Shown here one piece after another: positions 32,431 to 52,363 of a DNA stretch of 64,000 nucleotides. Position 1 is the stretch's first letter. Every line of letters begins with the position of its first letter. A model generated the notes under the pieces. The model was not told the origin of the DNA. It saw only the letters and a list, made by a program, of their open reading frames with translations, and did no database searches. Position numbers and translations under genes: made by a program. Origin of the DNA: Rhodococcus sp. Z13 (GTDB lineage Bacteria > Actinomycetota > Actinomycetes > Mycobacteriales > Mycobacteriaceae); contig NZ_CP107551.1 of assembly GCF_025837095.1 (NCBI RefSeq), positions 2,152,352 through 2,216,351 on the forward strand, written 5' to 3'.

Positions 32431-32459
32431 TTCACAAATATTGGCATAATTGCTATGGT
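32431..32459 (+). promoter_or_regulatory. Promoter of the acyl-CoA synthetase operon with operator-like dyad (site 1)
   Basis: TTCACA (32431-32436) and TATGGT (32454-32459) are 17 bases apart, and TGC precedes the -10 (extended -10). The spacer is filled by AAATATTGGCATAATT (32436-32451), an AT-rich imperfect dyad found again upstream of other units in this island. A repressor bound here would block polymerase. The 509-base gap 32066-32574 thus holds the riboswitch leader of one gene and the promoter of the other. Confidence 0.6.
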
Positions 32460-32574
32460 GTGCATCACACGGTCTCGTGAGGGGTGTGGACGACATTCCG
32501 CATCCGGGGGGCACGAGGTCCGATCCCTTCGTCTCTTCTCGTACGGCACTAGGTATCTACAGACAGGTGGTCAC

Positions 32575-34068
32575 ATGGGCATCGGGATGGTTCTCGACAT
32601 GGCGTCTGCCGCTACCCCCGGGCGGATCGCGACCGGTTCGCGACAGGGTGGCACGACCTATCGGCAACTCGACGAACTCGCCTCGCGGGGGGCGGGACTG
32701 ATCGGCGAGCTCGGCGCGCGCCACCTCGTGTTCGTGGGGGTCAACGGGCCGGTGCTGCCGGTGTTGATGTTCTCCACCGCGCGAGCCGGTATCCCGTTGG
32801 CGCCGTTGAACTACCGCCTTCCGTCCCATCAGTTGCTCGAGTTGATCGACCGCTTGGGCGATCCGGTGGTGGTGGCGGACGCCGAATACGTCGACAAGCT
32901 CGCCGGATGCCGGCACCGCATCCTCTCGACCGACGAATTCCTCCGCCTCGCAGGCGAGACGGAACCTGTCGCGGGAGACCGCTCGGAGGACGAGGGCACC
33001 GCGGTCGTCCTGTTCACCTCCGGTACCACCTCGGCCCCCAAGGGTGTGCTGCTCCGGCACCGCAACCTGCTGTCGTACCTGATCAACACCGTCGAATTCG
33101 GTTCCGCTGCAGAGGAACAGGCTGCATTGGTCAGTACGCCCCCCTATCACATCGCCGGTCTCGGTGCCGTGCTGAGCAACGTCTACTCGGGTCGGCGCAT
33201 GGTGTATCTCCCCGACTTCACCCCGCAGGGCTGGCTCGACGTCGTCCGGCGCGAAGGGGTCACCAGTGCGATGGTCGTCCCCACCATGCTCGCGCGCATC
33301 GTCGACCACCTCGACGGTGCGCCCGCCGAGTGCCCCACACTCGAATCGCTCGCCTACGGAGGGGCGCGGATGCCGCAGCCCGTCCTCGAGCGGGCACTCG
33401 CGGCGTTCGGGAACACCGGCTTCGTCAACGCCTACGGACTGACCGAGACCAGTTCGACCATCGCGGTCCTCGGTCCCGAGGACCACCGTGAAGCCTTCGC
33501 GAACCCCGAACTGCGAGGACGTCTTTCGTCGACGGGACGGATCGTTCCCGGGGTCGAGGCCCAGATCCGGTCCGAGGACGGGACCCGGGTGCTCCCCGAG
33601 GGGGAGACGGGACTGCTGTGGGTACGTGGTGCCCAGGTCAGTGGGGAGTACATGGGCAACGGCTCGGTGCTCGACGAGGACGGTTGGTTCCCCACCCGCG
33701 ACCGCGCCCGAATCGAGGACGGCTATCTCTACATCGGGGGCCGCGCGGACGACACCATCATCCGCGGGGGCGAGAACATCGCCCCGGCCGAGATCGAGGA
33801 CGTGCTGGCCCATCACCCCCACGTCCGCGAGGTCGCGGTGATCGGCACCCCCGACGACGAGTGGGGTGAGCGGATCTGCGCCGTGATCGTCCCGTCGGTC
33901 GACGACCACGACGACCCCGAGGAGATCCGCACCTGGTGCCGCGCGCGTCTGCGCGGCTCGCGGACGCCGGACGATGTCGTCTTCGCCGACGACCTGCCCC
34001 GCACCCCCACGGGCAAGCTCGTGCGCCGCGACCTCGTGGAACAGATCACCGCGGGACTCGCGGGCTGA
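32575..34068 (+). CDS. AMP-dependent acyl-CoA synthetase/ligase
   Basis: A 497-residue ANL-superfamily enzyme that activates a carboxylic acid to its CoA thioester via an acyl-adenylate. Motifs: VLFTSGTTSAPKGVLLRHRN (P-loop-like, about 145-165), NAYGLTETSST (about 285), the hinge-region TRDRARIEDGYLYIGGRADD and IIRGGENIAPAEIEDVL, and the C-terminal catalytic lysine in PRTPTGKLVRRD. ATG 32575 follows CAGGTGG; an upstream frame would lie in the promoter. It is the first gene of a plus-strand operon running to about 44.5 kb. The acid substrate cannot be told. Confidence 0.92.
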   Translation: MGIGMVLDMASAATPGRIATGSRQGGTTYRQLDELASRGAGLIGELGARHLVFVGVNGPVLPVLMFSTARAGIPLAPLNYRLPSHQLLELIDRLGDPVVVADAEYVDKLAGCRHRILSTDEFLRLAGETEPVAGDRSEDEGTAVVLFTSGTTSAPKGVLLRHRNLLSYLINTVEFGSAAEEQAALVSTPPYHIAGLGAVLSNVYSGRRMVYLPDFTPQGWLDVVRREGVTSAMVVPTMLARIVDHLDGAPAECPTLESLAYGGARMPQPVLERALAAFGNTGFVNAYGLTETSSTIAVLGPEDHREAFANPELRGRLSSTGRIVPGVEAQIRSEDGTRVLPEGETGLLWVRGAQVSGEYMGNGSVLDEDGWFPTRDRARIEDGYLYIGGRADDTIIRGGENIAPAEIEDVLAHHPHVREVAVIGTPDDEWGERICAVIVPSVDDHDDPEEIRTWCRARLRGSRTPDDVVFADDLPRTPTGKLVRRDLVEQITAGLAG

Positions 34069-34107
34069 CCCGCCCGGCAACGCCTTCCGCACAGAACAGG
34101 TTCTTCC

Positions 34108-35151
34108 GTGAGCACTCACCCCACCACCACGGCCACGCGACTCGAATGGGTCCTGCGTGCCCGCCCGAGCGGCCGGCCCCGGCCGAGCGACGTCGAACTG
34201 GTCGACTCCCCGCTCGCCGAGCGGGGCCCGGACCGGGTCCGTGTCCGCAACCTCGTCATGTCGGTCGAGCCGTACATGCGGGGCCGGATGGGCGGTGAGG
34301 CGACCTACGCGGAGCCCTACGCACTGGGGGAGCCGATGCTCGCACCGACCGTCGGGATCGTCACCGAGTCCGACGACCCGGCGCTCCCGGTCGGTGCCCA
34401 CGTCCTCCACGATCTCGGCTGGCGCACCGAGGCCCTCGTCCCGGTGGCCGACTGTCGCCGCTTGCGGCACGCCGACCTGCCCGCCGCCGTGCACCTGAGC
34501 GTGCTGGGTATCCCCGGCATGACGGCCTGGGTGGGGATCGACCGGATCGCGCAGGTCCGTGCCGGGGACGTCGTGTTCGTCTCCTCCGCTGCCGGCGCGG
34601 TCGGTTCGACCGCCGTCCAGCTGGCGAAACGACGCGGCGCCGTGGTGATCGGCAGCGCCGGGTCGCCCGAGAAGGTCGCACTCGTGCGCGACCTCGGAGC
34701 GGACGCGGCGTTCGACCACCACGACGGGCCGGCGAAGGACCTGCTGCGCGAGGCCATGGCCGAGGCCGGGGTTACGGCCCTGGACGTGTACTTCGACAAC
34801 GTCGGTGGCGAACAGCTCGAAGCGGCGATCCGGGTCCTGGCCGACCACGCCCGCATCGCCCTGTGCGGGATGATCAGCCTCTACAACTCCGCCGAGCCCG
34901 TGCCCGGCCCCCGCAACCTGCTCCGGCTGATCTGGCGCCGCGCCCGCATGGAGGGCTTCCTGCTGGCCGACCACCTCGACGCCCGCGAGGAGTTCGAGGA
35001 CGAGATGGCCACCCTCGTGCGGGAAGGACACATCCGGCCCGTCCACACCGAGTTCCCCGGCGGCATCTCCGGAGCATGGGACGCCTTCGTCGGGATGCTC
35101 GACGGCACCGCCACCGGCAAGGCCCTCGTCCCCCTCGACCCCGCCACCTGA
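34108..35151 (+). CDS. Zinc-independent medium-chain NADP-dependent reductase
   Basis: A 347-residue MDR protein of the leukotriene B4 dehydrogenase/prostaglandin reductase group. The N-terminal part includes VRNLVMSVEPYMRGRM (about 47-62) and the cofactor domain has VFVSSAAGAVGSTAVQLAKR (about 154-173). No zinc ligands are seen. Relatives reduce the double bond of alpha,beta-unsaturated ketones or thioesters. GTG start 39 bases after the ligase, in the same operon. Confidence 0.9.
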   Translation: MSTHPTTTATRLEWVLRARPSGRPRPSDVELVDSPLAERGPDRVRVRNLVMSVEPYMRGRMGGEATYAEPYALGEPMLAPTVGIVTESDDPALPVGAHVLHDLGWRTEALVPVADCRRLRHADLPAAVHLSVLGIPGMTAWVGIDRIAQVRAGDVVFVSSAAGAVGSTAVQLAKRRGAVVIGSAGSPEKVALVRDLGADAAFDHHDGPAKDLLREAMAEAGVTALDVYFDNVGGEQLEAAIRVLADHARIALCGMISLYNSAEPVPGPRNLLRLIWRRARMEGFLLADHLDAREEFEDEMATLVREGHIRPVHTEFPGGISGAWDAFVGMLDGTATGKALVPLDPAT

Positions 35152-35257
35152 TCCGCACCGGGACCGATCCCGACGTCGCGCCCGCGACGCCGGTGTCCCG
35201 CCGTACCTTCCCACCCCCGTCCGGCGCCCCGCGCCGACCACATCGACAGGAGCCCCC

Positions 35258-36022
35258 ATGACCACGCATCCCCGTCCTCTCGAAGGAAAGGTCGCGCTCG
35301 TCACCGGCGGCAGCCGCGGTCTGGGCCGCGAGATGGTGCTTGCCTTCGCGCAGGCCGGAGCCGACGTCGTCATCGTCAGCCGCAAGGTCGACAGCTGCGA
35401 GAAACTCGCCGCGGAGGTCGCCGAGACCACCGGCCGCAAGGCTCTCCCGCTCGCTCTCCACGTCGGTGACTGGGACGCCCACGAACCCGTCGTCGACCGG
35501 GTCTACGACGAATTCGGCCACCTGGACGTCCTCGTCAACAACGCCGGGATGGCCCCGCTGTATCCGAGCCTCGACCAGGTCTCGGAGGAGCTGTTCGACA
35601 AGGTGATCGGCGTCAACCTCAAGGGCGCCTTCCGTCTGACCGCCCTCGTCGGACCGCGCATGGCGGCCGGCGACGGCGGATCCATCATCAACATCAGCTC
35701 GATCGCCTCCGAGCGGCCGATGACCACCGACCTGCCCTATGCGGCCGCCAAGGCCGGACTCAATACCCTCACCAAGGGGTTCGCGCAGGCCTACGGTCCC
35801 ACGGTGCGGGTCAACACCATCATGGCCGGTGCGTTCCTCACCGACATCAGCAAGGCCTGGGACATGGACTCGGCCAACGAACTGTTCCGTGCCATGCCGC
35901 TCCAGCGTGCCGGTGACCCCAGCGAGATCGTCGGGGCTGCACTGTATCTCGCCGGACCCGGCTCCACCTACACCACCGGTGCAGTGATCCCCGTCGACGG
36001 CGGCCGCACCTCCACCCCCTGA
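35258..36022 (+). CDS. SDR-family oxidoreductase
   Basis: A 254-residue classical SDR with cofactor loop TGGSRGLG (about 16-23), VNNAGMAPL, Ser in NISSIASERP and the YAAAKAG Tyr/Lys pair (about 165-169). Ends in VIPVDGGRTSTP. ACAGGAG precedes the ATG. Probably a hydroxyacyl or alcohol dehydrogenase of the catabolic operon; the exact step is unknown. Confidence 0.9.
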   Translation: MTTHPRPLEGKVALVTGGSRGLGREMVLAFAQAGADVVIVSRKVDSCEKLAAEVAETTGRKALPLALHVGDWDAHEPVVDRVYDEFGHLDVLVNNAGMAPLYPSLDQVSEELFDKVIGVNLKGAFRLTALVGPRMAAGDGGSIINISSIASERPMTTDLPYAAAKAGLNTLTKGFAQAYGPTVRVNTIMAGAFLTDISKAWDMDSANELFRAMPLQRAGDPSEIVGAALYLAGPGSTYTTGAVIPVDGGRTSTP

Positions 36023-36065
36023 CCGATCCCGGCAACCCCACCGGACCGACGACCAGGAGCCCCAC

Positions 36066-37151
36066 ATGACCCCCATCAAGTCCCGGCGCACCTTCCTGTC
36101 CGCCCTGACCGCCGCCGCACTCGCTGCGACCCTCGCGGCCTGCGGCGGTAGCAGCAACGCCGACGACCGCATCACCGCCGACTCCGTCGGTGCCACCGGC
36201 CCGGCCGGTGACGAGGCGTGGCAGCAGATCGTCGAGGCTGCCCAGCAGGAGGGTGAGGTCACCATCTATTCCTCCAACGCCGCCGATGCTCTCGCCGAAC
36301 TCGGACGCCGCTTCGAGGCCGACTACGGCATCCGCCTCAACGTGGTCCGAGATGTCGACGCGAACCTGCACCAGAAGATCGGTGCGGAGGCGGAGACGGG
36401 CAACCGTGTCGCCGACGTGATCACCCAGGCCAGCGTGCCCTGGGCCGTCGAGAACGGCGCGAACGGTGTCTTCGCCCAACCGGTCGGCCCCGCCTTCACC
36501 GACTCCGCGAGCGAATACGACGTCGCGACGTTGATGGACGACGACGGCTACTTCGTCACCAACGCCTCGGTGCTGACCTTCGGCTGGAACACCCAGCGTT
36601 ACCCCGACGGCCTCGACAGCTACACCGACCTGCTCGATCCGTCCCTCGCCGACGGCAAGATCGGCATCGTCACCCCCACCTCGACCGCCCACGTCGACTT
36701 CTACGACAGCTATCTCGAACAGGTCGGGGGAGAGGGATTCCTCGAGAAGCTCTCCGCCCAGAAGCCGCGGATCTACCCCAGCGCACTGCCACTGGCTCAG
36801 GCCCTCGCCTCCGGTGAGATCGCCGTCGCCGCCTTCGTGCAGGACCAGAAGAGCGAACAGAAGACCGGTGCGCCCGTCGACTCGGCGTTCGGGGACGTCG
36901 TGTGGGGCGCACCCATGTACACCGCGATCCTCGCCGACGCCGTTCATCCCAACGCGGCACAGGTCCTCGCCAACTACATGATCACGCCCGCCGGCCAGGA
37001 GGCCGTCTCGTTCCGCAACGCCGCGGTGCTGCCGAACATCGCCTCGTCGGTCACCACCGTGGACAAGGTCGCCCCGCAGGACACCGAGGCGATGACGCCG
37101 GAAGCACTCGAGGACCTCAAGGCCCGCTTCGGTCGCCTGTTCAACCAGTAG
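36066..37151 (+). CDS. ABC transporter substrate-binding lipoprotein (family 1, Fe3+/organic-anion type)
   Basis: A 361-residue extracellular solute-binding protein. The signal is SRRTFLSALTAAALAATLAAC: a twin-arginine-like start and lipobox with Cys26, so possibly a Tat-exported lipoprotein. Body segments EGEVTIYSSNAADALAELGR and LTFGWNTQRYPDGLDSYTDL match the FbpA-like group, whose members bind ferric iron, phosphonates or organic anions. No adjacent permease; the likely membrane partners are encoded at 56.5-59.4 kb next to a second binding protein (53.8 kb) with the same design. Its location in a catabolic operon favours an organic acid ligand. Confidence 0.9.
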   Translation: MTPIKSRRTFLSALTAAALAATLAACGGSSNADDRITADSVGATGPAGDEAWQQIVEAAQQEGEVTIYSSNAADALAELGRRFEADYGIRLNVVRDVDANLHQKIGAEAETGNRVADVITQASVPWAVENGANGVFAQPVGPAFTDSASEYDVATLMDDDGYFVTNASVLTFGWNTQRYPDGLDSYTDLLDPSLADGKIGIVTPTSTAHVDFYDSYLEQVGGEGFLEKLSAQKPRIYPSALPLAQALASGEIAVAAFVQDQKSEQKTGAPVDSAFGDVVWGAPMYTAILADAVHPNAAQVLANYMITPAGQEAVSFRNAAVLPNIASSVTTVDKVAPQDTEAMTPEALEDLKARFGRLFNQ

Positions 37152-37180
37152 CCCCGGATCGCCGGAGAAGGAGTCACCCC

Positions 37181-38008
37181 ATGGGAAGAGTCGAAGGCAA
37201 GGTCGCGCTGATCACCGGCGCGGCCCGCGGCCAGGGACGCTCGCACGCCCTGCGTCTCGCCGAAGAAGGAGCCGACGTCGTCCTCCTCGACGTGTGCGCA
37301 CCCATCGAATCGGTGCCGTATCCCCTCGCCACCGAGGACGATCTGAAGGAGACCGAGGCACTGGTCGCCGCGACCGGTCGCCGGGTGCTCTCCCGGATCG
37401 CCGACGTACGCGACCAGGCGCAGCTGGACGCCGCCGTGGCCGACGCGATCGGCACCTTCGGCCACATCGACATCGTCTGCGCCAACGCGGGCATCGTCGG
37501 TTTCCGGCCCACCTGGGAGCTGAGCGACGCCGAATGGCAGGACATGCTCGACGTCAACCTCACCGGTGTGTTCCACACCGTCCGGGCAGTCGTCCCCGAG
37601 ATGATCCGGGCCGGTCGCGGCGGTTCCATCGTCATCACCAGTTCCATCCAGGCGATGCTCGGTTCGGCCAACATCGGGCACTACAACGCCTCCAAGAGCG
37701 GTGTCGTCGGCCTGATGCGCACCCTCGCCACCGAACTCGGGCCGCACGGGATCCGCGTCAACACCGTCAATCCCAGTGCCGTCGAGACCCCGATGCTGCA
37801 CAACGACGCAACCTTCCGGATCTTCGCCCCCGATCTCGAGGCTCCCGGGCCGGACGATCTGTGGGAGCGCTCGAAGGGGCGCAATCCGATGGGCATCGGC
37901 TGGGTCGCCACTCAGGACATGACCAACGCCGTGTTGTTCCTGGCTTCCGACGAGGCACGATTCATCACCGGCGTGGCACTGCCGGTCGACGCAGGAGTTC
38001 GACTGTGA
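37181..38008 (+). CDS. Mycofactocin-coupled SDR-family oxidoreductase
   Basis: A 275-residue SDR carrying the extra segment after strand 2 (VLLDVCAPIESVPYPLATED followed by DLKETEALV, about 34-62) that typifies mycofactocin-dependent dehydrogenases, which hold NAD tightly and pass electrons to mycofactocin. The cofactor loop is TGAARGQG (about 12-19), and the catalytic Tyr/Lys are in HYNASKSGVVG. Ends VALPVDAGVRL. AGAAGGAG precedes the ATG. The stop overlaps the next SDR start. It implies that the host makes mycofactocin and that an alcohol is oxidised in this pathway. Confidence 0.9.
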   Translation: MGRVEGKVALITGAARGQGRSHALRLAEEGADVVLLDVCAPIESVPYPLATEDDLKETEALVAATGRRVLSRIADVRDQAQLDAAVADAIGTFGHIDIVCANAGIVGFRPTWELSDAEWQDMLDVNLTGVFHTVRAVVPEMIRAGRGGSIVITSSIQAMLGSANIGHYNASKSGVVGLMRTLATELGPHGIRVNTVNPSAVETPMLHNDATFRIFAPDLEAPGPDDLWERSKGRNPMGIGWVATQDMTNAVLFLASDEARFITGVALPVDAGVRL

Positions 38009-38820
38009 CAACTCTGGACAACGAAACCCGTCCCGACACCGCCCGAGGGCTGCGCCGCCTCGAAGGACGCCGCATCTTCGTCACCGGTGGCGGCAGCGGA
38101 ATCGGGGAGGCCGTCGCCCACCGCCTCGCCGCCGAGGGCGCCCTGGTCGCCGTGACCGACGCACGGGGCGAGGCCGCCGAATCGGTCTCCGCCGCGGTCG
38201 CCGACACCGGCGCCCGTACCCTGGGTCTGCGCTGTGACGTCGGCGACGAGACCTCGGTGGAGGAAGCGATGGCCGCCTCGGTCGCCGAGTTCGGCGGCCT
38301 CGACGGGGTGGTGACGTGCGCCGGTGTCAACGGCACCGCGATGCTGCACGAGATGGACCTCGCCCACTGGGAACGCATCCTCCGGGTGAACCTCACGGGC
38401 ACCTTCCTGCCGTTGCGCGCGGCGCTGCCGCACCTGCTCGAGGCCGGGGGCGGGTCGATCGTCACCGTCGGGTCGGTCGCCTCACTGGTGGCGACCAATC
38501 TGAACACCCCCGGTTACGACGCGTCCAAGGGCGGTGTCCTGCAGCTCACCAGGTCGATCGCCATGGGCTACGCCGACCGCAACATCCGCGCGAACTGCCT
38601 GTGCCCGGGCCTCGTCCGCACCGGGCTGCGGGTGAACTCGCAGGCGTTGCAGGGACCGGAACCGGAGCCGACCCGCAGCCGGGTCGTGGAGAACACCGCG
38701 CTCGGCCGCTCCGCGGATCCCGCGGAGATGGCGTCGGTGGTGGCCTTCCTGCTCTCCGACGACGCGTCCTTCGTGACCGGCGCGGCCATCGCCGCCGACG
38801 GTGGCCTGACCGCGAACTGA
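38005..38820 (+). CDS. SDR-family oxidoreductase
   Basis: A 271-residue classical SDR: TGGGSGIG (about 28-35), VTCAGVNGT, VTVGSVASLV with the catalytic Ser, and YDASKGG with Tyr/Lys (about 171-175). GTG 38005 overlaps the preceding stop by four bases, and GCAGGAG lies nine bases upstream, so the two SDRs are translationally coupled. They may act on successive or alternative intermediates. Confidence 0.9.
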   Translation: MTTLDNETRPDTARGLRRLEGRRIFVTGGGSGIGEAVAHRLAAEGALVAVTDARGEAAESVSAAVADTGARTLGLRCDVGDETSVEEAMAASVAEFGGLDGVVTCAGVNGTAMLHEMDLAHWERILRVNLTGTFLPLRAALPHLLEAGGGSIVTVGSVASLVATNLNTPGYDASKGGVLQLTRSIAMGYADRNIRANCLCPGLVRTGLRVNSQALQGPEPEPTRSRVVENTALGRSADPAEMASVVAFLLSDDASFVTGAAIAADGGLTAN

Positions 38821-38845
38821 CCCACTAGACAGAGGTGACCCACAC

Positions 38846-40033
38846 ATGTCCACCGACCCGACCTGGCGCAGGGATGCCTGTGCCATCGCAGGAATCGGGA
38901 CCACCCGGTTCTCCAAGGATTCCGGCGTGTCCGTCACGGCGCTCGCCGTCGAGGCCGCCGCTGCGGCGCTCGAGGACGCCGGCCTGACCCCCGCCGACGT
39001 CGACGGCGTCGTCCGCAACGACATGGACCTGGTCTCGTGCGCGGCGCTCGCCGACGGCCTCGGCGTACCGCATCTGACCTACTGGGGCGAAGCGGGACCG
39101 GGTGGCTCCGGTCCGGCCGCGATGGTCGCCCAGGCCGTCGCCGCGATCATGAGCGGCCAGGCGACCACCGTCGTCGTCTTCCGCTCGCTCAACGGCCGCT
39201 CCGGCCGCCGTTTCGGTCTCTCCCCGGTCGTCACCCCCGAGGTGGGCGGCAACGAGACCTTCGAGGAGTTCTTCGGTCCCTACGGGCTGCTCTCGTCCGG
39301 CCAGTACTTCGCGCTCATGGCCCAGCGCTACATGACCGAGACCGGCCTGACCTCCGAACAGCTCGCGCAGATCGCGCTGGTGACCCGCAAGCGTGCCAAC
39401 GCCAACCCGGCCGCCCAGATGTACGACCGGCCGATGACCCTCGACGACTACTTCGCCTCGCGGATGCTGTCGTCACCGCTGCGCCTGTTCGACTACTGCC
39501 TCGAGACCGACGGCGCCGCTGCGGTCGTCGTCACCACCACCGAACGCGCCAAGGACCTGCGCCAGCCCCCGGCGCTGATCCGCTCGGTCGCGATGTCGAC
39601 CTGCCGGCACCCGCAGCCGGGTCTGATGTACCCGACGCTCATGCGCGAGAACATCACCGTGCTGCCCTCACGTGAATGCCAGGACACGCTCTACAGCCGT
39701 GCGGGGCTCGGGCCAGCAGACGTCGACGTCGCCCAGATCTACGACTGCTATTCGATCACCGCCCTCATCCAGCTCGAGGACTACGGCTTCTGCAAGCGCG
39801 GCGACACCGGGGACTTCCTCGCCGACGGCCAGATCGACCTGGGTGGGTCCATCCCGATCAACACCAGTGGAGGACACATGTCCGAGGGATACATCCACGG
39901 AATGAACCACGTCGTCGAAGGGGTGCGGCAGATCCGCGGCACCTCCACCAGTCAGGTCGAGGGCGCCGAGGTCTCCCTCGTCACCTCGGCCCCGCCGCCG
40001 GCGGCGTCCGCACTGCTCCTGGTGGCGGCATGA
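38846..40033 (+). CDS. Thiolase-like protein lacking the nucleophilic cysteine (Ltp2/aldolase-like)
   Basis: A 395-residue SCP-x-type thiolase fold. Where true thiolases have the active cysteine this protein reads YWGEAGPGGSGPAAMVAQ, with no cysteine. The C-terminal blocks IYDCYSITALIQLEDYGFC and NTSGGHMSEGYIHGMNHVVE are those of the Ltp2/DitF-like group, in which Ltp2 with a DUF35 partner performs retro-aldol cleavage of steroid side-chain CoA thioesters. The next gene, overlapping by four bases, is a DUF35 protein, which fits such a complex. Retro-aldolase activity is inferred. Confidence 0.85.
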   Translation: MSTDPTWRRDACAIAGIGTTRFSKDSGVSVTALAVEAAAAALEDAGLTPADVDGVVRNDMDLVSCAALADGLGVPHLTYWGEAGPGGSGPAAMVAQAVAAIMSGQATTVVVFRSLNGRSGRRFGLSPVVTPEVGGNETFEEFFGPYGLLSSGQYFALMAQRYMTETGLTSEQLAQIALVTRKRANANPAAQMYDRPMTLDDYFASRMLSSPLRLFDYCLETDGAAAVVVTTTERAKDLRQPPALIRSVAMSTCRHPQPGLMYPTLMRENITVLPSRECQDTLYSRAGLGPADVDVAQIYDCYSITALIQLEDYGFCKRGDTGDFLADGQIDLGGSIPINTSGGHMSEGYIHGMNHVVEGVRQIRGTSTSQVEGAEVSLVTSAPPPAASALLLVAA

Positions 40034-40518
40034 GCGCCGCGCCCGCCGCGACCGCGGCCACCCCCGATACCCCCCGACTCCGCCCGCTCGTCACCGAACG
40101 GGGCAGCGCCGGCTTCTTCTCCGCCGCCGCGCGGCGCCGCATCGAGATCCTCACCTGCGAGGACTGCGGCCGGCGTATCCACCTGCCGCGTCCGCGCTGT
40201 GTGCACTGCGGCAGCACGAACGTGTCGTGGACCCCGGCCCCGCACACCGGCACGGTCTACAGCCACACGGTCGTCGAACACCAGGTCCATCCGCTGTTCC
40301 CCGTGCCCTACACGGTGATCGTCGTCGACCTCGACGGCGAGGAGGACGGCGTACGCCTGATCGGCAACCTGCCCGGCCGTGCCGAGGTCACCGCCGGCAC
40401 CCCCGTCCGCTGCACCTTCGAGGACCTCGGAGAGGACGCGGCCGGAAACCCTGTGGTCCTGCCCGTATGGGAGATCGATACCGAGCGCGCGAGCAGCGGA
40501 ACCGAGGAGGACGCGTGA
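40030..40518 (+). CDS. DUF35 OB-fold protein with zinc ribbon
   Basis: A 162-residue DUF35 protein. The N-terminal zinc ribbon has CEDC (about 46-49) and CVHC (about 60-63); the OB-fold follows (about 75-150), with TGTVYSHTVVEHQVHPLFPV. DUF35 proteins bind thiolase-like partners and shape the acyl-CoA site (ChsH2-Ltp2 type). ATG and GTG overlaps on both sides couple it with the thiolase-like gene and the second DUF35 gene. Confidence 0.9.
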   Translation: MSAAPAATAATPDTPRLRPLVTERGSAGFFSAAARRRIEILTCEDCGRRIHLPRPRCVHCGSTNVSWTPAPHTGTVYSHTVVEHQVHPLFPVPYTVIVVDLDGEEDGVRLIGNLPGRAEVTAGTPVRCTFEDLGEDAAGNPVVLPVWEIDTERASSGTEEDA

Positions 40519-42085: not shown

Positions 42086-42132
42086 CCCGTCCCACCGACG
42101 AGAACTTTCACCAACGCTAGGAGACGATCGAC

Positions 42133-44537: not shown

Positions 44538-44547
44538 CCGTACACAC

Positions 44548-44593
44548 CGACGGGGCACGTCCGGTGGCGCGAGCCGCCCGGCGTGCCCCGTCG
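44548..44593 (+). terminator. Terminator after the kinase gene
   Basis: CGACGGGGCACG (44548-44559) pairs exactly with CGTGCCCCGTCG (44582-44593); the loop can form an inner GGYGGC/GCCGCC stem. It is followed by TCGTTTC. It probably ends the operon that starts at 32575, with some read-through into the LLM gene. Confidence 0.7.
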
Positions 44594-44619
44594 TCGTTTC
44601 GCCACCACGAGGAGAGAAC

Positions 44620-45513
44620 GTGCCCACTGTCGGACTGTGCACCTACGGCATCACCCCGCACGACGCGCTCGACCTGGCCCGCGCCGCGGACGAACTCGGA
44701 TTCCACGCCCTGTGGCTCGGGGAGCACGTGCTGCACCCGATCTCGTACGGGAGCGCGCACCCGTCGACAGGCACCCGCCAGCACCATTCGGGGCCGATCG
44801 TCGACGACACCACCGAACTCACCGACCCGCTCGCCCTGCACGCCGCGATCGCGGCGTGCACGCAACGGCTGATGCTCGGCACAGCCGTCTACGTCACCGC
44901 CCTCCGGCACCCCCTGCACACGGCCCGTACGACGATCACCCTGCAGGAACTCAGCGGTGGACGGTTGCTGTTCGGGATCGGTTCGGGCTGGCTCGAGGAG
45001 GAGTTCACCGCCCTCGACGTGCCCTTCACCCGGCGGTTCGCCCGCACCGACGAGTGTGTGGAGATCCTGCGTAAGGCGTGGGGCGGCGAGTCGTTCGCCC
45101 ACGAGGGTGCCCACTACCGGTTCGACGAGGTACGGCTGCACCCGCGGCCGGTGACGGTGCCGGTCGTCTACGGCGGCAACGGGCCTCGTGCCCTCGCCCG
45201 CGCAGCACGTCTCGGCGATGCGTGGATCTCCTCGGGCACACCGACCTTCGAGGAGGCGGTGGAGTTGGTGGGTACCCTGCGTCGGCACCGCCGGGAGATC
45301 GACGGCAATGCGGATTTCCCGTGCTATGTGCGTGTCGAGATCACCGAGGAGACGACGGCGTCGGATCTCCACCGTTACCGGGAGCACGGACTCGACGATC
45401 TGGTCGTGTGGGCCGACGCGGGTTGGAAGGGCGCCACCCTCGCGCAGCGGCGGGAGAATCTGGCGGCCCTGGCGGATCGGCTCGGGGTGCGGTCGCCGGC
45501 GACCGTGGGCTGA
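44620..45513 (+). CDS. LLM-class (luciferase-like) flavin/F420-dependent oxidoreductase
   Basis: A 297-residue TIM-barrel protein of the F420-dependent LLM group: LGEHVLHPISYGSAHPSTG (about 33-51), LMLGTAVYVTALRHPLHTAR, then LSGGRLLFGIGSGWLEEEFT. C-terminal VVYGGNGPRALARAARLGDA. Such enzymes use F420 or FMN to oxidise or reduce alcohols, ketones or acyl-CoA compounds. GTG 44620 with GAGGAGAG upstream. It follows a terminator and ends at another, so it may have its own promoter. Confidence 0.88.
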   Translation: MPTVGLCTYGITPHDALDLARAADELGFHALWLGEHVLHPISYGSAHPSTGTRQHHSGPIVDDTTELTDPLALHAAIAACTQRLMLGTAVYVTALRHPLHTARTTITLQELSGGRLLFGIGSGWLEEEFTALDVPFTRRFARTDECVEILRKAWGGESFAHEGAHYRFDEVRLHPRPVTVPVVYGGNGPRALARAARLGDAWISSGTPTFEEAVELVGTLRRHRREIDGNADFPCYVRVEITEETTASDLHRYREHGLDDLVVWADAGWKGATLAQRRENLAALADRLGVRSPATVG

Positions 45514-45601: not shown

Positions 45602-46321
45602 TCAGCGGGCAGCGGTGCTGCCGGTGACCGGGACGAGAGCGCCGGTCACGGCGCGGGAGGCGTCGCTCAGGAGGAACGCGATGACCTCGGCGATGTCGGT
45701 GGGGCGCGCCCATGAGGAGGTGTCGGCGTCGGGCATGGCCTGTCGGTTCGCCGGGGTGTCGATCATGGACGGCACCAGGCCGTTGACGCGGATGGAGTCG
45801 GGGGCGTACTCCACGGCCATGCTCTGCACCAGCGCGGCGACGGCGGCCTTGGAGGCGATGTAGCCGGCGGCGCCGGGGAAGGGGCTCGTGGCAGCGGCCG
45901 ACCCGATGCACACGATCGATCCGCCGCCGTGCCGGATGAGTTCGGGCAGCGCGGCCTGGGTGACGAGGTAGGCGATGCGCAGGTTGAGGGAGAGCTGGGC
46001 GTCGAGCACGTCGACGGGGGTCTCGTGCACGCGGCTGCCGGAGTGGAACCCGCCGACGAGGTTGACCAACCCCGTCATGGGACGGGAGTCGTCCTCGGCG
46101 GCAAGGGAGATCACGCGCTCGACGTCGTTCTCGTCGGACAGGTCGGCCTTGACGAGCAGGAGATCGGGGTGCGGGGTGAGCCGATCGACCTCGGCCTCGT
46201 CGTACCACGGGACGACCACACGGGCGCCGGTCGCGAGGAGACGTTCGGTGACGGCGGTGCCGAGACCGCCGGTGCCGCCGGTGACCACGACGGAGCCGGA
46301 TCCGGGGGTGTGTTCACTCAT
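45602..46321 (-). CDS. SDR-family oxidoreductase
   Basis: A 239-residue SDR: cofactor loop TGGTGGLG (about 14-21), VNLVGGFHSGS instead of the usual NNAG, CIGSAAATSPF with Ser, and YIASKAA Tyr/Lys (about 151-155). The altered NNAG motif sets it apart from the other SDRs in the island. ATG 46321 follows AAAGG. An operator-like dyad lies 67-82 bases upstream. Confidence 0.88.
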   Translation of the reverse strand: MSEHTPGSGSVVVTGGTGGLGTAVTERLLATGARVVVPWYDEAEVDRLTPHPDLLLVKADLSDENDVERVISLAAEDDSRPMTGLVNLVGGFHSGSRVHETPVDVLDAQLSLNLRIAYLVTQAALPELIRHGGGSIVCIGSAAATSPFPGAAGYIASKAAVAALVQSMAVEYAPDSIRVNGLVPSMIDTPANRQAMPDADTSSWARPTDIAEVIAFLLSDASRAVTGALVPVTGSTAAR

Positions 46322-46387: not shown

Positions 46388-46403
46388 AAACATGCCCATA
46401 TTT
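46388..46403 (-). promoter_or_regulatory. Operator-like dyad upstream of the SDR gene (site 2)
   Basis: Read on the minus strand this is AAATATGGGCATGTTT, an imperfect inverted repeat (AAATAT/ATGTTT) that closely matches sites at 32436 and 48684. It lies in the 119-base gap between the MFS and SDR genes, in an AT-rich patch unlike its surroundings. Confidence 0.55.
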
Positions 46404-46440: not shown

Positions 46441-47673
46441 TCACCCTTCGGTCGGCACCGGTTCGGAGGTGGGCTCCGTCCGGGTACGCCGCCGCGACGG
46501 CAGCAGTCGCCCGCCGAGTGCGAGAGCGCCCAGACCGAGGAACGCCGCGGCCGCGGTGGCTGCGAAGGGAACCCACGGCTCGGTGGTCTGGCCGAGCCAT
46601 CCGGCCAGCCACGGCGCGCAGGCGCCACCACCGAAACGGACGAAACTGTAGCTCGCCGCGACGGTGGCGCCGTCCACCGTCGAGACGTGCATCCCGATCT
46701 CCGTCACCAATGCGTTGAGCAGGCCGACGAACAGGCCGGAGACGACGATGCAGGCCGTGACCACGGCCCGGTCGTCGACGAAGACCGCGACCAGGGCCAG
46801 GGTGGCGGCGAACGACACCAGTGCCGTGGCCACGGTGGGTACCGCCCCGACGGTCGACTGCAGTCGAGGTGCCAGAAGGACGGAGGCGCAGACCAGGCAC
46901 AGGCCCCATCCGGAGAACACGAAACCGATTCGGGTCGACGAGTATCCGAGGACGAACGGGCCGTAGGAGAACAGCGTGAACAGACCGAGGTGGTAGAGCA
47001 GCGATACCACCGCCACCGAGAACAACCCCCGATGCGCGAGGGCGCGGAACGGGGCGGTGAGCGAGGTCGGAGCCGCCGGGCGCGGGGCGGGGGGCAGAAT
47101 CGCCACCAGCACGACGAACGAGGCGACGACCAGCGCGGCCGATCCGAGGAAGGCCGCGCGCCACGAGATCTGCCCCAGCAGTCCACCGAGCAACGGGCCC
47201 GTGGCGATTCCCGCGCCCACCGCCGCCTCGTAGAACGTGATCGCCCGGGAACGCTCACCGGGCATCGCCGCCACGATCGCAGCCAGGGAGGTCGCGACGA
47301 ACAGGGCATTCCCGAGACCCCAGCCGGCGCGGAAGCCGACGATCTGCCCGACCGTCCACGACAGGCTCGATCCGAGGGCGGCCAGCGCGATGACCGCCAG
47401 CCCGACCAGCAGGGTCGTGCGCATACCGATCCGGCTGGAGATCCAGCCGGTGGCCACCATCGCCAGTCCCATCACCGCCATGTAACTGGTGAACAGCAGG
47501 GACACCTGGGCCGGTGACCCACCGAGTTCGAGGGCCAGGGTCGGGAGGATGGGGCTCACCACTCCGATGCCCATGAACACGCCGACGGTGGCGAAGGCGA
47601 CCGCCAGACCGGCGCGGGGGAGAGGGGAGCGACCGCGCGAACGGTCACGGCGGATGACAGGTTTCGATGACAC
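46441..47673 (-). CDS. MFS transporter
   Basis: A 410-residue major facilitator protein with 12 predicted membrane helices. The loop 2-3 motif is GWISSRIGMRTTLLVG (about 76-91), and helix 5 has GAGIATGPLLGGLLGQ, which is usual for drug/H+ antiporters of the 12-helix group. GTG start. Upstream of it lie a strong hairpin and the GntR regulator. It may export a pathway intermediate or toxic acid, or import substrate; specificity unknown. Confidence 0.88.
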   Translation of the reverse strand: MSSKPVIRRDRSRGRSPLPRAGLAVAFATVGVFMGIGVVSPILPTLALELGGSPAQVSLLFTSYMAVMGLAMVATGWISSRIGMRTTLLVGLAVIALAALGSSLSWTVGQIVGFRAGWGLGNALFVATSLAAIVAAMPGERSRAITFYEAAVGAGIATGPLLGGLLGQISWRAAFLGSAALVVASFVVLVAILPPAPRPAAPTSLTAPFRALAHRGLFSVAVVSLLYHLGLFTLFSYGPFVLGYSSTRIGFVFSGWGLCLVCASVLLAPRLQSTVGAVPTVATALVSFAATLALVAVFVDDRAVVTACIVVSGLFVGLLNALVTEIGMHVSTVDGATVAASYSFVRFGGGACAPWLAGWLGQTTEPWVPFAATAAAAFLGLGALALGGRLLPSRRRTRTEPTSEPVPTEG

Positions 47674-47795: not shown

Positions 47796-48584
47796 TCAGC
47801 GCCAGTCCACGCGTTCGTCCAGCATCCGGGGATTCACTGAGGAGAGGTTGTCCATCACGTCGCGCATGTGCTCGCGCGCGAGGCGGCGGGCGAGTTCGGG
47901 GTCGCCTGCGGCGATGGCGTCGTGGATCGCCTGGTGGGGACTCTCGAAGCTCTGACGTTCCTCCTCGCTCCACACCTGGGGATGTGCCTCGAGCATCCGA
48001 TCGGTGTAGATGTGGGCGAGCGCGGAGCCCGTGAGAGTGAGGATGTAGTTGCCGGACAGCTCCCGCAGGGTCTCGTGGAACCCGACGGCGGCCTCGGTGA
48101 CCTCCTCGTCCGTCATGTCCGTGGAGATGCGCTTGCCGGCCAGTGCGTCGAGGTCGACCTTCTCGCCGGCGGCGACACGGTCGGCGAGCATCGCGGCCGC
48201 GAGTCCTTCCATCTCGAGTGCCGCCTCGGCGACCTGGCGGAAGCTGACGCCCTTCGCCTGCAGATACATCGACAGGGTGTCCCCGAACTCGCTGCCCGAC
48301 GGCTCGGAGACGATCGGGCCGCCGCCGAGTCCCTGCCGTACGGTCACCAGGCCCTGGGCCTCGAGCAGACGCAGTCCCTCTCGAACCGAGGCGCGTCCGA
48401 CGCCGAAACGGCGGGCCATCTCGGATTCCGCCTCGAGGGCGGATCCGGGGGCGAGCTGCCGGTCGGCGATCTCCTTGGCCACCATCCGGGCCACGGTGCG
48501 CGAGACCTTCTCGTGCCGGGTCATCGCCACCGCGCGCCGGCGCGCCGCGGTGTCCGACTGCGAGCTCGTGATGTTGCGGGTCAT
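47796..48584 (-). CDS. GntR-family regulator, FadR/FCD subfamily
   Basis: A 262-residue regulator. The winged helix covers about residues 22-95 (RMVAKEIADRQLAPGSALEA, then RRFGVGRASVREGLRLLEAQ). The C-terminal all-helical FCD domain (about 110-250) retains metal or ligand-binding histidines in VGFHETLREL, SPHQAIHDAI and REHMRDVMD. FCD regulators usually sense organic acids or acyl-CoA and repress catabolic genes. GAGGA precedes the ATG. It is divergent from an SDR gene, and the 141-base gap contains one copy of the shared dyad, consistent with autoregulation. It is the only regulator gene inside the island. Confidence 0.9.
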   Translation of the reverse strand: MTRNITSSQSDTAARRRAVAMTRHEKVSRTVARMVAKEIADRQLAPGSALEAESEMARRFGVGRASVREGLRLLEAQGLVTVRQGLGGGPIVSEPSGSEFGDTLSMYLQAKGVSFRQVAEAALEMEGLAAAMLADRVAAGEKVDLDALAGKRISTDMTDEEVTEAAVGFHETLRELSGNYILTLTGSALAHIYTDRMLEAHPQVWSEEERQSFESPHQAIHDAIAAGDPELARRLAREHMRDVMDNLSSVNPRMLDERVDWR

Positions 48585-48683: not shown

Positions 48684-48719
48684 AAATATATGTATGTTTC
48701 GCGTGTTTGATGCTATACC
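48684..48719 (+). promoter_or_regulatory. Operator-like dyad (site 3) and promoter of the SDR gene
   Basis: AAATATATGTATGTTT (48684-48699) matches the shared dyad. TGCTATACC with -10 TATACC (48714-48719) follows, and the SDR ATG begins six bases after the -10, so the message should start at or next to the ATG (leaderless). No ribosome site is visible. The dyad lies about 100-115 bases upstream of the GntR start, so it could control both directions. Confidence 0.55.
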
Positions 48720-48725
48720 ACTCCT

Positions 48726-49532
48726 ATGACCCAGAACACACCCACCTACGAATCGTTGGCGCACAACACGAACGCGCACCCCCTGTCCGGGCAGCACGTC
48801 CTGGTCACAGGCGGAAGCGAGGGTATCGGCTACGGCATCGCGGAACGTCTGCTCGACGCGGGCGGCACGCTCACCCTCGCCGCCCGGCGGCCGCAGGTGC
48901 TCGACGACGCGGTCGAACGGTTGCGGACCCGATGCGGCGACGCGGCGCGCGTGACGGGCGTCGTCGCCGACATCCGCGACGCGGACTCGATCGCCGCGAT
49001 GTTCGACACGGCGCAGGACCGGAACGGGCCGCTGAACGTGCTCGTCGCCAATGCCGGCAGCGGTACCGTCGTTCCCTTCCTCGATCTCACCCGTCAGCAG
49101 TGGCAGGACTGCATCGACCTGAACCTGACGGGAACCTTCCTGTGCGTGCAGGCCGCGGCCCGCTCGATGGTCGACCGCGCAGGGGAGAACCGCTCGATCG
49201 TCGTGGTCTCGTCGATCCGGGCGCTCGGCGCGCGGCCCTCCCTCGTGCCCTACGGTACGGCGAAGGCGGGACTCAACCAGCTCGTGCGCCTGGCCGCGTA
49301 CGAACTCGCCTCCACCGGCGTGCGCGTGAACGCCCTGTCTCCCGGTATCACCGCGACACCGCTCACGCAGGATCGCAACAGCCTCTTCGAGGAACGGGCC
49401 GCCACCGTGCCCATGGGCCGGGCGGGAACGCCGGCCGACATGGCTGCTGCGGCACTGTATCTCGCAAGTCCCGACTCGTCCTTCGTGACCGGGACGAATC
49501 TCGTGGTGGACGGCGGCGAATCGCTCTACTGA
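48726..49532 (+). CDS. SDR-family oxidoreductase, probably leaderless
   Basis: A 268-residue classical SDR: TGGSEGIG (about 28-35), VANAGSGTVV, VVVSSIRALGARP with Ser, and YGTAKAG Tyr/Lys (about 177-181). Ends LVVDGGESLY. It has no Shine-Dalgarno sequence and its ATG lies six bases after a -10 hexamer, which is typical of leaderless actinobacterial messages. Monocistronic, divergent from the regulator. Confidence 0.88.
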   Translation: MTQNTPTYESLAHNTNAHPLSGQHVLVTGGSEGIGYGIAERLLDAGGTLTLAARRPQVLDDAVERLRTRCGDAARVTGVVADIRDADSIAAMFDTAQDRNGPLNVLVANAGSGTVVPFLDLTRQQWQDCIDLNLTGTFLCVQAAARSMVDRAGENRSIVVVSSIRALGARPSLVPYGTAKAGLNQLVRLAAYELASTGVRVNALSPGITATPLTQDRNSLFEERAATVPMGRAGTPADMAAAALYLASPDSSFVTGTNLVVDGGESLY

Positions 49533-49570: not shown

Positions 49571-49605
49571 TTGTGATGTACAACGCACAAAACATTGCTA
49601 TAGTT
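49571..49605 (+). promoter_or_regulatory. Promoter region of the CoA-transferase gene with dyads (site 5, weaker)
   Basis: AAACATTGCTATAGTT (49590-49605) fits the shared dyad more loosely, and contains an extended -10 (TGC-TATAGT, 49599-49604). Just upstream TTTGTG and CACAAA (ending about 49591) form a separate six-pair inverted repeat with a ten-base spacer. Either could be an operator. The gap 49533-49731 holds nothing else evident. Confidence 0.45.
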
Positions 49606-49731
49606 ACAGTGTTTTCAGCTCACGTCCGAGCATCCGCCGGATTCCTCACCCCGATCACGGAGTCGTCCGGCGCTCACTCCCATCCTGCGCGCGGCCCGTC
49701 GTGGCCGTGAGACGACGAAGGAGAACACTCG

Positions 49732-50949
49732 ATGACCACGGTGATGAACGGGATCAAGGTCGTGGAGGTGGCGCTGTACGCGTTCGTCCCCTCGGCGGCC
49801 GCGATCCTCTCCGACTGGGGAGCCGACGTCGTGAAGGTCGAGCACTCCGATTTCGGGGACCCCACCCGATCCACCGCTGCGTGGGGCGTGCCCGCCGAGG
49901 TGGACGGCCTCGCAAGCCTCTTCGAGATCAACAACCGCGGAAAGCGTGCCGTCGCACTGGATATCGCGCACCCCGACGGGCGCGAAGTGCTCATGAAGCT
50001 CGTCGAGTCCGCCGACGTGTTCATGACCAACTTCCTGCCCGACGCCCGTGCCAAGCTGGGCATCGACGTCGACGACATCTTCGCGCGCAACCCCCGCATC
50101 GTGTACGCCCGCGGCACCGCCCAGGGTGTGGCTGGTCCCGAGAGCGACAAGGGTGGATTCGACGGCATCACCTACTGGGCGCGCTCCGGCGCGGCCGGAT
50201 CCATCGCGCCGGACGACCTCGACTGGCCGGCCAACATGCCCGGCCCGGCCTTCGGTGACTCCCAGAGCGGCATGGCCCTCGCCGGTGGTATCGCCGCGGG
50301 CCTGTTCCACCGCGAGCGCACGGGCAAGGGCATCGTGGTCGACACCTCCCTGTTCTCGATGGGTGCCTGGGCCATGCAGGCGACCATCGCGGGCTGCCAG
50401 GTGATCGGCGCCGACGAACTGCCCTATCCCGATCGGAACAACCCCGTCAATCCGGTGTCGAACATCTACCGCACCAAGGACGGTCGCTACATCCATCTCG
50501 CGCTGCTGCAGAGTCAGAAGTTCTGGCCCGGCCTGTGCGAGGCGATCGGACTGTCCCACCTCATCGACGACCCGCGGTTCGCGACCTTCGAGGACCGGGC
50601 GCGCAACTCCCGTGAGTGCACGGCGATCCTGACCGAGTTGTTCGAGCAGCGCACCCTCGAGGAGTGGACCGACATCCTCGGCAAGCAGGAAGGTCAGTGG
50701 GACGTCTTCCGCAAGCCGATCGACGTGCTGTCCGATCCGCAGGCGCTGGCCAACGGGTTCGTGCGGACCGTGGAGTACGAGAACGGGCGCACCCTCGACA
50801 TGGTCACGGCCCCGACCAGTTTCGACGGGCAGGCCCCCACGCTGACGCGGGCTCCCCGCCACGGTGAGCACACCGACGAGGTGCTCCTCGAGCACGGCCT
50901 GGACTGGGATCGCATCGTCGAACTCAAGATCTCCGGCGCGATCAAGTAG
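49732..50949 (+). CDS. CaiB/BaiF-type (class III) CoA-transferase
   Basis: A 405-residue class III CoA-transferase, moving CoA between carboxylic acids. N-terminal segments are [20 protein letters not shown] and [39 protein letters not shown] is a family block. The catalytic aspartate is the Asp in [16 protein letters not shown] (about 180). AAGGAG lies about ten bases before the ATG. Provides an ATP-free route to activate the substrate, complementing the ligase at 32.6 kb. Confidence 0.92.
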
Positions 50950-51048
50950 CGCCCTTCCCCGGCCGCGACCGGCCCGGTCGTCGCCCGCCTCCGCGCGCAC
51001 CTGCGCGCCGACGGTTTCCGTTTCCCCTCATCCCGAGAAGGAGTTCTC

Positions 51049-52218
51049 GTGTACGACCTTCGAGACATCAAGATCATCGACACCGACACCCATGTCGTCG
51101 AGCCGCCGGACCTGTGGACCTCCCGCATGTCGAAGAAGTGGGGCGACCTCGTCCCGCACGTGCGCTGGGACGAGCAGCGCGGCGACGAGGCGTGGTTCGT
51201 CTCCGGCACCCGTATGAGTGCCGTCGGCTCGCCCGCGATGGCCGGCTGGCACGAGTACCCGCCGAACTGCCCGCCGCGCTTCGAGGACACCGATCCGCGC
51301 TCCTGGGATCCGGGCAAGCGACTGGCCCTGATGGACGACTACGGCATCCATGCCCAGATCCTGTACCCGAACGTCGCGGTCTTCAGCCAGAAGACCCTGC
51401 AGTCCAACGGATCCAACGAGCTCCAGCTCGAGTGCGTGCGCGCCTACAACGACTTCCTCACCGAGTGGGCGCAGTTCGCGCCCGGCCGTTACATCCCGGT
51501 CGGCATCCTGCCCTTCTGGGACATGGAGGCCACCCTCGCCGAGATCGACCGTATCGCCGCCGCCGGCCACAAGGGCCTGGTGTTCACGCAGAACCCGGCG
51601 GCCTTCGGCCTGCCGATGCTGACCGATCCCTACTGGGACCGGCTGTGGGCCTCGGCGCAGGAGAAGAAGCTGCCGATCAACTTCCACATCGCCTCGGGTG
51701 AGGTCGACCTGAGCGGCTTCGGGCACGAGAGCGTCGGCACGCACGCCAACTACGGCATGATGGGCATCTCCTTCTTCATGGACAACGCCCGTACGCTGTC
51801 GCAGCTCATCTTCGGTGGTATCTGCGACCGTTTCCCGGATCTGAAGTTCGTCTCCGTCGAGTCGGGTATCGGTTGGATGCCGTTCGCGCTCGAGGGCATG
51901 GACTGGCAGTGGAAGAACAGCGGCGTGCACAAGGAGCACCCGAACTACGAGCTGCTGCCCAGCGAGTACTTCAAGCGGCAGATCTACGGCTGCTTCTGGT
52001 TCGAGCAGGACTCGGCCCGCAGTGCGATCGAGCAGCTCGGCGCCGACAACATCCTCTACGAGACGGACTACCCGCATCCGACGTCGATGTCGCCCGGACC
52101 GGCGACCGACGCGGTCCGTCCCGACGACTACCTGCGCCGCAACTTCGCGCACCTGTCGGAGGAGGATGCCCGCAAGATCCTCCACGACAACGCCGCAGCG
52201 CTCTACAACCTGGACTGA
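51049..52218 (+). CDS. Amidohydrolase-2 family protein (metal-dependent hydrolase/decarboxylase)
   Basis: A 389-residue TIM-barrel protein of the amidohydrolase-2 (ACMSD-related) family. The metal motif is DTDTHVVEPPDLW (about 11-23), the later histidine is in INFHIASGE, and the final acidic residue in YETDYPHPTS (about 336-345). Members hydrolyse C-N bonds or decarboxylate aromatic or beta-keto acids. GTG with GAAGGAG upstream. It follows the CoA-transferase by 99 bases and ends at a strong terminator, so the two genes are probably co-transcribed. Confidence 0.9.
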   Translation: MYDLRDIKIIDTDTHVVEPPDLWTSRMSKKWGDLVPHVRWDEQRGDEAWFVSGTRMSAVGSPAMAGWHEYPPNCPPRFEDTDPRSWDPGKRLALMDDYGIHAQILYPNVAVFSQKTLQSNGSNELQLECVRAYNDFLTEWAQFAPGRYIPVGILPFWDMEATLAEIDRIAAAGHKGLVFTQNPAAFGLPMLTDPYWDRLWASAQEKKLPINFHIASGEVDLSGFGHESVGTHANYGMMGISFFMDNARTLSQLIFGGICDRFPDLKFVSVESGIGWMPFALEGMDWQWKNSGVHKEHPNYELLPSEYFKRQIYGCFWFEQDSARSAIEQLGADNILYETDYPHPTSMSPGPATDAVRPDDYLRRNFAHLSEEDARKILHDNAAALYNLD

Positions 52219-52233
52219 CGTCCTCGAATCCCA

Positions 52234-52268
52234 GGTGCCGGCCCGTATGCGACGGGCGGGCCGGCACC
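52234..52268 (+). terminator. Terminator after the amidohydrolase gene
   Basis: GGTGCCGGCCCG (52234-52245) pairs exactly with CGGGCCGGCACC (52257-52268), 11-base loop. Confidence 0.8.
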
Positions 52269-52347
52269 ACGGTCCGCGGTGGGGTGCACGATCCGGCGTG
52301 GGTGACATGAATCTCCCTTGCTGCTGGACTGTGACGTAAATCTCCGT

Positions 52348-52363
52348 TAATATGCGTATGTTC
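52348..52363 (+). promoter_or_regulatory. Operator-like dyad upstream of the acyl-CoA dehydrogenase gene (site 4)
   Basis: TAATATGCGTATGTTC matches the shared dyad at most positions, in an AT-rich patch (52320-52370) between a terminator and the dehydrogenase gene. It lies 96-111 bases before the ATG. No clear -10 could be assigned. Confidence 0.5.

Follow-up and report, generated by a model that had tools for sequence, protein, structure and literature searches.

A 64,000-nucleotide stretch of the single-contig, 4.53-Mb genome of Rhodococcus sp. Z13 (G000:C1:2152352-2216351, referred to below as the window) contains five copies of a 16-bp palindrome, AAAYAT-N4-ATRTTT, distributed over a 25-gene island. 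We predict that these 16-mers are operators read by a single local repressor, the FadR-type GntR protein whose gene lies at 47796-48584 within the island, and from the sequence comparisons presented here we give this interpretation a probability of about 0.83. A first-pass annotation of the window had listed all five, at the positions where we found them, as an AT-rich 16-bp dyad located 25 to 140 bases before start codons in otherwise very GC-rich DNA. The dyad itself, the distances (26 to 126 bases as counted), and the setting (AT-rich gaps in a window of about 70% GC) were reproduced, but its wording is better replaced by the consensus nAnYAT-N4-ATRnTn, derived from 40 orthologous copies, in which A2, A5, and their mirror positions T12 and T15 are invariant (symmetrised counts). 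The five operators are as follows.

Operator 1: 32436-32451, plus strand, AAATATTGGCATAATT (AAATAT-TGGC-ATAATT), 123 bases from the start codon of the coenzyme A (CoA) ligase gene
Operator 2: 46388-46403, AAACATGCCCATATTT, read on the minus strand as AAATATGGGCATGTTT (AAATAT-GGGC-ATGTTT), 66 bases from the start codon
Operator 3: 48684-48699, plus strand, AAATATATGTATGTTT (AAATAT-ATGT-ATGTTT), 26 bases from the start of a short-chain dehydrogenase/reductase (SDR) gene and 99 from that of gntR
Operator 4: 49590-49605, plus strand, AAACATTGCTATAGTT (AAACAT-TGCT-ATAGTT), 126 bases from the start codon
Operator 5: 52348-52363, plus strand, TAATATGCGTATGTTC (TAATAT-GCGT-ATGTTC), 95 bases from the start codon

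Scans were performed with AAAYAT-N4-ATRTTT at a limit of one or two mismatches, with the reversed motif as the control. At two mismatches, the window gave nine strand-matches at five places versus 0.08 expected in shuffled sequences. In the whole genome, all four places with at most one mismatch were inside the island (control, 0), and 14 places, including the five operators, were found at up to two mismatches (control, 4). Since the motif was defined on the same five sites, the fair tests are the orthologous islands and other GntR loci. Eight of the 18 genomes of the genus match this GntR at 1e-40, and each of them has four island places with at most one mismatch and a fifth at two. The remaining ten, among them G155 with a distant GntR at locus B (see below), have zero to three places at this stricter limit and no island-type cluster. 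The motif search across the genome and orthologous islands that the first-pass annotation had proposed thus revealed a motif that is confined to the island at up to one mismatch and is kept in the orthologues. A weight matrix trained on these sites, and so not independent of them, found exactly five sites per island (18.3-29.0 bits) in seven islands and four plus one over the two contigs of G157, with a next-best score of 9.9 bits in those islands; the rearranged G095 island gave four sites at 22-28 bits, followed by scores of 17.8, 13.1, 11.1, and 9.2.

Conservation and promoter context of the operators

Eight related islands retain all five sites, with a mean pairwise identity of the arms of 0.98, 0.96, 0.92, 0.98, and 1.00 for sites 1 to 5. 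Outside the arms, identity at site 2 drops to 0.34 in the spacer and 0.36 in the 60-base flanks, and at site 3 to 0.60 and 0.51, respectively. Sites 1, 4, and 5 have similar spacers too (0.74, 1.00, and 0.88), as well as similar adjacent sequence (0.91-0.96 over the nearest 10 bases), and because promoter elements flank these three sites, conservation of the operator can be separated from that of the promoter at sites 2 and 3 only. The G095 island has a rearranged gene order and a GntR of 56-57% identity; there, the genes for CoA ligase, two SDRs, and amidohydrolase are preceded by high-scoring sites.

Four of the five operators overlap consensus-like promoter elements or closely follow them, being placed in the spacer, at the -10, or shortly after it. 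The promoter hexamers are weak. Two further sequence elements were recognized at operators 1 and 4.

Unit 1 promoter-like element: 32431-32459, plus strand, TTCACA-N17-TATGGT with TG preceding the -10; both hexamers present in 8/8 islands (by eye)
Putative CRP-like half-site box: 49572..49587, plus strand, TGTGATGTACAACGCA, just upstream of operator 4

Operator 1 occupies the spacer of the first element, as had been claimed, and shares its first base with the -35. Operator 2 is outside the promoter hexamers, starting 12 bases beyond the -10-like hexamer of the SDR promoter GTGACG-N17-TACACT (46444-46416). Operator 3 is upstream of the TGC-TATACC of the SDR gene and 32 bases upstream of the gntR TATACT; TGC-TATACC was read by eye and was not called by consensus scans, and if it is the SDR -10, operator 3 covers the -35 region. 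Operator 4 includes the -10 TATAGT of TGTACA-N16-TATAGT (49577-49604), and the left arm of operator 5 is the -10-like TAATAT of TGGACT-N17-TAATAT (52325-52353). Where sites 4 and 5 deviate from the consensus, some of the bases involved double as the -10, as would be expected where one sequence serves both polymerase and repressor. Conservation in the eight islands and promoter geometry together back the earlier proposal that five transcription units form one regulon.

CRP sites have the form TGTGA-N6-TCACA, and FNR sites, TTGAT-N4-ATCAA, a 5-N4-5 geometry. The arms of the motif differ from both, and only half-boxes of this kind occur, nearby. The TGTGATGTACAACGCA box is identical in seven of the eight islands and differs by one base in G151. 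A TGTGA/TCACA half-box is present within 60 bases of 13/20 motif copies versus 16% of 3633 low-GC control windows; at sites 4 and 5, the centre of the box precedes the motif by about 10 bases. This enrichment is only a lead, since the test was conceived after the sites had been seen, the G111 and G606 copies are related, and the windows overlap and are not confined to intergenic gaps. A CRP-type activator may work alongside the proposed GntR repressor.

The GntR protein and the motif beside its relatives

The regulator has an N-terminal GntR winged-helix domain (PF00392, 46.7 bits, cut-off 27) and a C-terminal FCD ligand domain (PF07729, 47.5 bits, cut-off 24.3), which together place it in the FCD subfamily. 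None of the curated equivalogue models NanR, PdhR, LldR, GlcC, and FadR scored above its cut-off (best score 86.1 bits versus 260); the best matches, NanR, PdhR, and LldR, were all far below. The same gene is present at 84-87% identity in Rhodococcus sp. HM1, Rhodococcus sp. CH91, and R. zopfii. His170, His217, and His239, which we take to be possible metal ligands, are invariant in 13 aligned members. Family scans of the called genes of the window island showed no other transcription factor. Operator 3 lies in the divergon formed by gntR and the SDR gene, so the regulator's own divergent promoter region carries a site, as first noted, and this arrangement is kept in eight islands.

The motif was also found near diverged GntRs in three other clusters. 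At locus B (G154, G068, and G155), a site is located between a CoA ligase gene (64% identical to that of the island in G154 and G068) and divergent genes for an acyl-CoA dehydrogenase and a GntR of 33-34% identity. Locus C of G297 has an exact site 113 bases upstream of a 36% GntR match, with an amidohydrolase of 32% on the other side, and G706 has an exact site in the same place. Locus D is a catabolic cluster distinct from that of the island. In G111 (C3:658638-679246; L066, L067), it contains seven sites at up to two mismatches in 20.6 kb (control, 0) and a GntR of 31%, along with SDR, P450, major facilitator superfamily (MFS), aldehyde dehydrogenase, and amidohydrolase genes; in G606 (C6:3196264-3213916; L159, L160), six sites (control, 0) surround two related GntRs. 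Among 97 FCD-domain matches in five genomes (G000, G111, G154, G068, and G155, where some are fragments), 89 have no place with at most one mismatch within 3 kb; the eight that do are all GntRs of the kinds described, four from islands, three from locus B, and one from locus D. This count was used in place of a narrower control with 1.5-kb flanks, in which 0/28 FCD genes, including the locus-D GntR, had a site. Recurrence beside diverged GntRs and not beside other FCD regulators supports the first-pass choice of this GntR as the best candidate reader of the motif.

In 401 genomes of the family, 54 matches at 1e-60 were obtained with a model of 13 GntRs, most of which are motif-linked or closely related to such proteins; 18 of the matches score about 295 bits or more and the rest 223 or less. 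Thirty matches were fetched with 1.5-kb flanks, and all 13 above the gap have a site with at most one mismatch. Those from G706 and G606 had not been used to build the model, although relatives of theirs had. When the arms were permuted, the true pattern matched 13 of these motif-type loci and none of the 17 weaker homologues, and of 29 other permutations the near-variant AAATAY matched 10, one matched 1, and the rest 0; nine of the 13 loci are the island orthologues that define the motif. G563 has an amidohydrolase of 57% and ATP-binding cassette (ABC) genes of 60-65% but the 40 kb fetched contain no homologue of this GntR, and its sole place, with two mismatches, is inside the permease match, which fits a link between GntR and motif. 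The amidohydrolase (at least 91%) and the GntR occur in the same 9/401 family genomes, and therefore a co-loss test cannot separate them.

Other candidates were tried. A search with a relaxed core near motif-free relatives gave a GC-richer version of the palindrome, AACCAT-GCGC-ATGRTT, in two genomes (L149:812-827 and L153:2920-2935), where it precedes a related GntR by about 670-690 bases. It was not found in the sister stretch L157 and is a weak lead as a variant operator; a shared palindrome sought in three motif-free groups was not found. A recognition-residue signature before the conserved helix-turn-helix Arg, with Gly/Ala in motif-linked GntRs and Ser in most other FCD regulators, was rejected because several motif-free GntRs share Gly/Ala. 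An Arg equivalent to FadR Arg35 is generally absent, being found in 1/41 aligned rows having a residue there, and its absence therefore does not discriminate either; the mapping onto E. coli FadR numbering used a published table and an alignment.

A number of observations weigh against a local GntR repressor as the common reader of these sites. The GT...AC core of FadR-type sites is missing, and the operator would thus be a non-canonical variant. Co-occurrence alone is weak evidence because island genes are inherited together, and the score gap is partly circular because the model was built from motif-linked members. None of the 17 fetched homologues at 209-223 bits has a site with at most one mismatch (two have a two-mismatch place), and among the 18 matches above the gap, that at G111 C3:687804 lacks a site both in its 1.5-kb flanks and in the 15 kb fetched around it. 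GntR homologues of 36-39% in G326, G378, G183, and G318, which belong to two other families of the order, have no site at up to two mismatches in 17-18 kb. With 1.5-kb flanks, the locus-D GntR of G111 itself counts as motif-free because its sites are 1.8-2.0 kb from the FCD domain. In a tree of 47 GntR proteins, motif-free clades lie between the three to which the motif-linked members belong (one for the island and locus C, one for locus B, and one for locus D), and four changes are needed, with some long branches making the tree unsure; the motif is therefore either ancestral and was later lost or replaced, or arose more than once. G095 has no site just upstream of gntR, and G668 has a one-mismatch site before an amidohydrolase gene and no such GntR in the 20 kb fetched. 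Finally, of 17 non-island places with at most one mismatch in the 18 genus genomes, five have an FCD-domain match no more than 3 kb away, a further two are part of the same G111 cluster, and the other 10 belong to no known GntR cluster; FCD genes were listed for four genomes with such places (G111, G154, G068, and G155), and in the others a GntR model matched nothing in the 3-14 kb stretches searched.

The missing core and the FNR-like 5-N4-5 geometry could point to a regulator, such as one of the CRP/FNR type, whose gene lies outside the window, and the CRP-like half-boxes indicate that another regulator may act nearby. Such a regulator should have targets elsewhere, whereas the genome has no other place at up to one mismatch; moreover, ten genus genomes without a match to this GntR also lack the site cluster, and the motif recurs beside GntR relatives in other clusters. 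We consider this explanation unlikely. The GntR could also act at these sites as an activator, or as activator and repressor together, as is reported for E. coli FadR (PMC4259882), and the weak promoter hexamers also speak for this. Such a role is quite improbable, since four sites lie over the -10 or spacer or just past the -10, a geometry that suits blocking and not recruitment.

That the palindrome is a mere AT-rich promoter signature, or the target of an AT-silencer of the Lsr2 type, is hardly credible. Two sites do contain the -10 itself, and AT-rich gaps stand out in a window of this composition, but the 6-4-6 palindrome is exact, at sites 2 and 3 its arms are kept despite drift in the spacer and flanks, site 2 is clear of the promoter hexamers, and permuted palindromes of equal composition do not recur, one near-variant excepted.

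In the repressor interpretation, a GntR dimer would bind AAAYAT-N4-ATRTTT over core-promoter elements and block RNA polymerase at five units, probably including its own divergent promoter. The ligand would be a pathway intermediate, probably a carboxylate or CoA ester bound in the FCD domain, whose binding would release GntR and switch on the uptake and breakdown genes together. The island thereby supplies a regulator-operator pair that can be tested in a breakdown pathway of 25 genes not characterised so far, the operators could be used to find the inducer and hence the substrate, and further regulons of this kind are predicted in relatives. More tentatively, at somewhat less than even odds, the motif may represent a second, old recognition mode in FadR-type GntRs, with AC...GT half-sites on either side of a free 4-base centre; at least three clades of GntRs, with identities as low as about 31%, would have retained it and would control different acyl-CoA and oxidative breakdown clusters in this Rhodococcus genus and three other genera of the family (G095, G606, and G297/G706).

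The gene island and its neighbourhood

The island comprises 25 genes in 28 kb (about 32.4-60.4 kb of the window), and the five operators precede five putative transcription units, in agreement with the number of units proposed in the first-pass annotation; the end coordinate given there did not hold, since the predicted fifth unit reaches about 59.4 or 60.4 kb.

Unit 1: 32575..45513, plus strand, 13 genes (Pfam, synteny), predicted operon extent
Unit 2: 45602..46321, minus strand, SDR-family dehydrogenase (family scan; ATG read from sequence)
MFS transporter: 46441..47673, minus strand, downstream of gntR; no match in the G068 and G095 islands
FadR-type GntR regulator: 47796..48584, minus strand, GntR winged helix-turn-helix and FCD domains; proposed repressor
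Unit 3: 48726..49532, plus strand, SDR-family dehydrogenase divergent from gntR; ATG just 6 bases past TATACC
Unit 4: 49732..52218, plus strand, CaiB-type CoA-transferase and amidohydrolase-2 (closest solved sequence DitZ)
Unit 5: 52459..60367, plus strand, predicted operon extent, last gene least sure

Unit 1 encodes a CoA ligase, a zinc alcohol dehydrogenase, an SDR, a solute-binding protein, two more SDRs, two thiolase-like and two DUF35/ChsH2-like proteins, an acyl-CoA dehydrogenase, an APH-like protein, and a luciferase-like monooxygenase. Unit 5 encodes an acyl-CoA dehydrogenase, a solute-binding protein, another acyl-CoA dehydrogenase, an ABC ATPase, an ABC permease, and an SDR. The MFS transporter gene is possibly co-transcribed with gntR. 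The synteny map covered 26 window genes, the 25 of the island and the neighbouring EamA transporter gene, which is outside the regulon. All 26 have matches in G123, G154, G158, and G157 (over two contigs in the latter); in the stretches fetched, EamA is missing from G111, MFS from G068, EamA and the last SDR from G151, and EamA, MFS, and the last SDR from the rearranged G095.

The closest matches of the amidohydrolase are DitZ and PtmU3, those of the thiolase are SCP2-type and benzoylsuccinyl-CoA thiolases, and that of the ligase is a feruloyl-CoA synthetase. Two sets of thiolase and DUF35 genes are located at 38846-42085. The amidohydrolase and the thiolase/DUF35 sets are a hint that a cyclic acid undergoes ring cleavage and thiolysis, and the closest matches tentatively suggest an alicyclic or terpenoid-like acid as the pathway substrate.

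Several features adjoin the island. A glycine riboswitch aptamer (32216-32304, minus strand; Rfam RF00504, 63.5 bits) lies next to operator 1 in the opposite orientation, upstream of the EamA-type transporter gene (31097-about 31948, minus strand). An mce-type operon with one MlaD and two MlaE proteins by Pfam occupies 19426-27354, and genes for an MPAB/Lcp-type oxygenase (27588-28451) and a TetR regulator (28505-29065) are found near it. Directly past the island, an ISL3-family transposase gene (62588-63910) may bear on how the island moved.

Comparison with known FadR-type regulators

The GntR shares the winged helix and FCD domain with FadR-subfamily repressors of catabolic operons of the PdhR, LldR, GlcC, and NanR type. 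Mycobacteria have actinobacterial FadR-type regulators such as Mce1R and Mce2R, and mycobacterial Rv0494 (9wfi) is among the solved relatives of the GntR, with the match limited to the DNA-binding part (query residues 24-103). A literature search that covered few subscription papers found nothing evidently on the AAAYAT-N4-ATRTTT motif.

The difference is in the operator. According to PMC4494728, FadR-subfamily operators are TKGT/ACMA palindromes with mostly three, sometimes two, bases between GT and AC, whereas the site counts here give nAnYAT-N4-ATRnTn; the doubt expressed in the first-pass annotation over the core was correct by this standard. Where position 4 is C, the site reads AC...GT, with its polarity reversed. 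Exceptions to the consensus listed in that paper include the operators of BioR (TTATMKATAA) and NanR (direct repeats TGGTATAW). Compared by published sites, both differ from the island motif, BioR being a compact 10-mer without a free 4-base centre and NanR a direct repeat. Operator 3 resembles the single-site divergons described there, in which the site is nearer to the structural gene than to the regulator gene, as it is nearer to the SDR gene than to gntR. The amino acid-base rules for FadR-type regulators given in PMC4494728 omitted members with sites off the common consensus, and if the GntR binds its predicted operators, these rules would need a second class.

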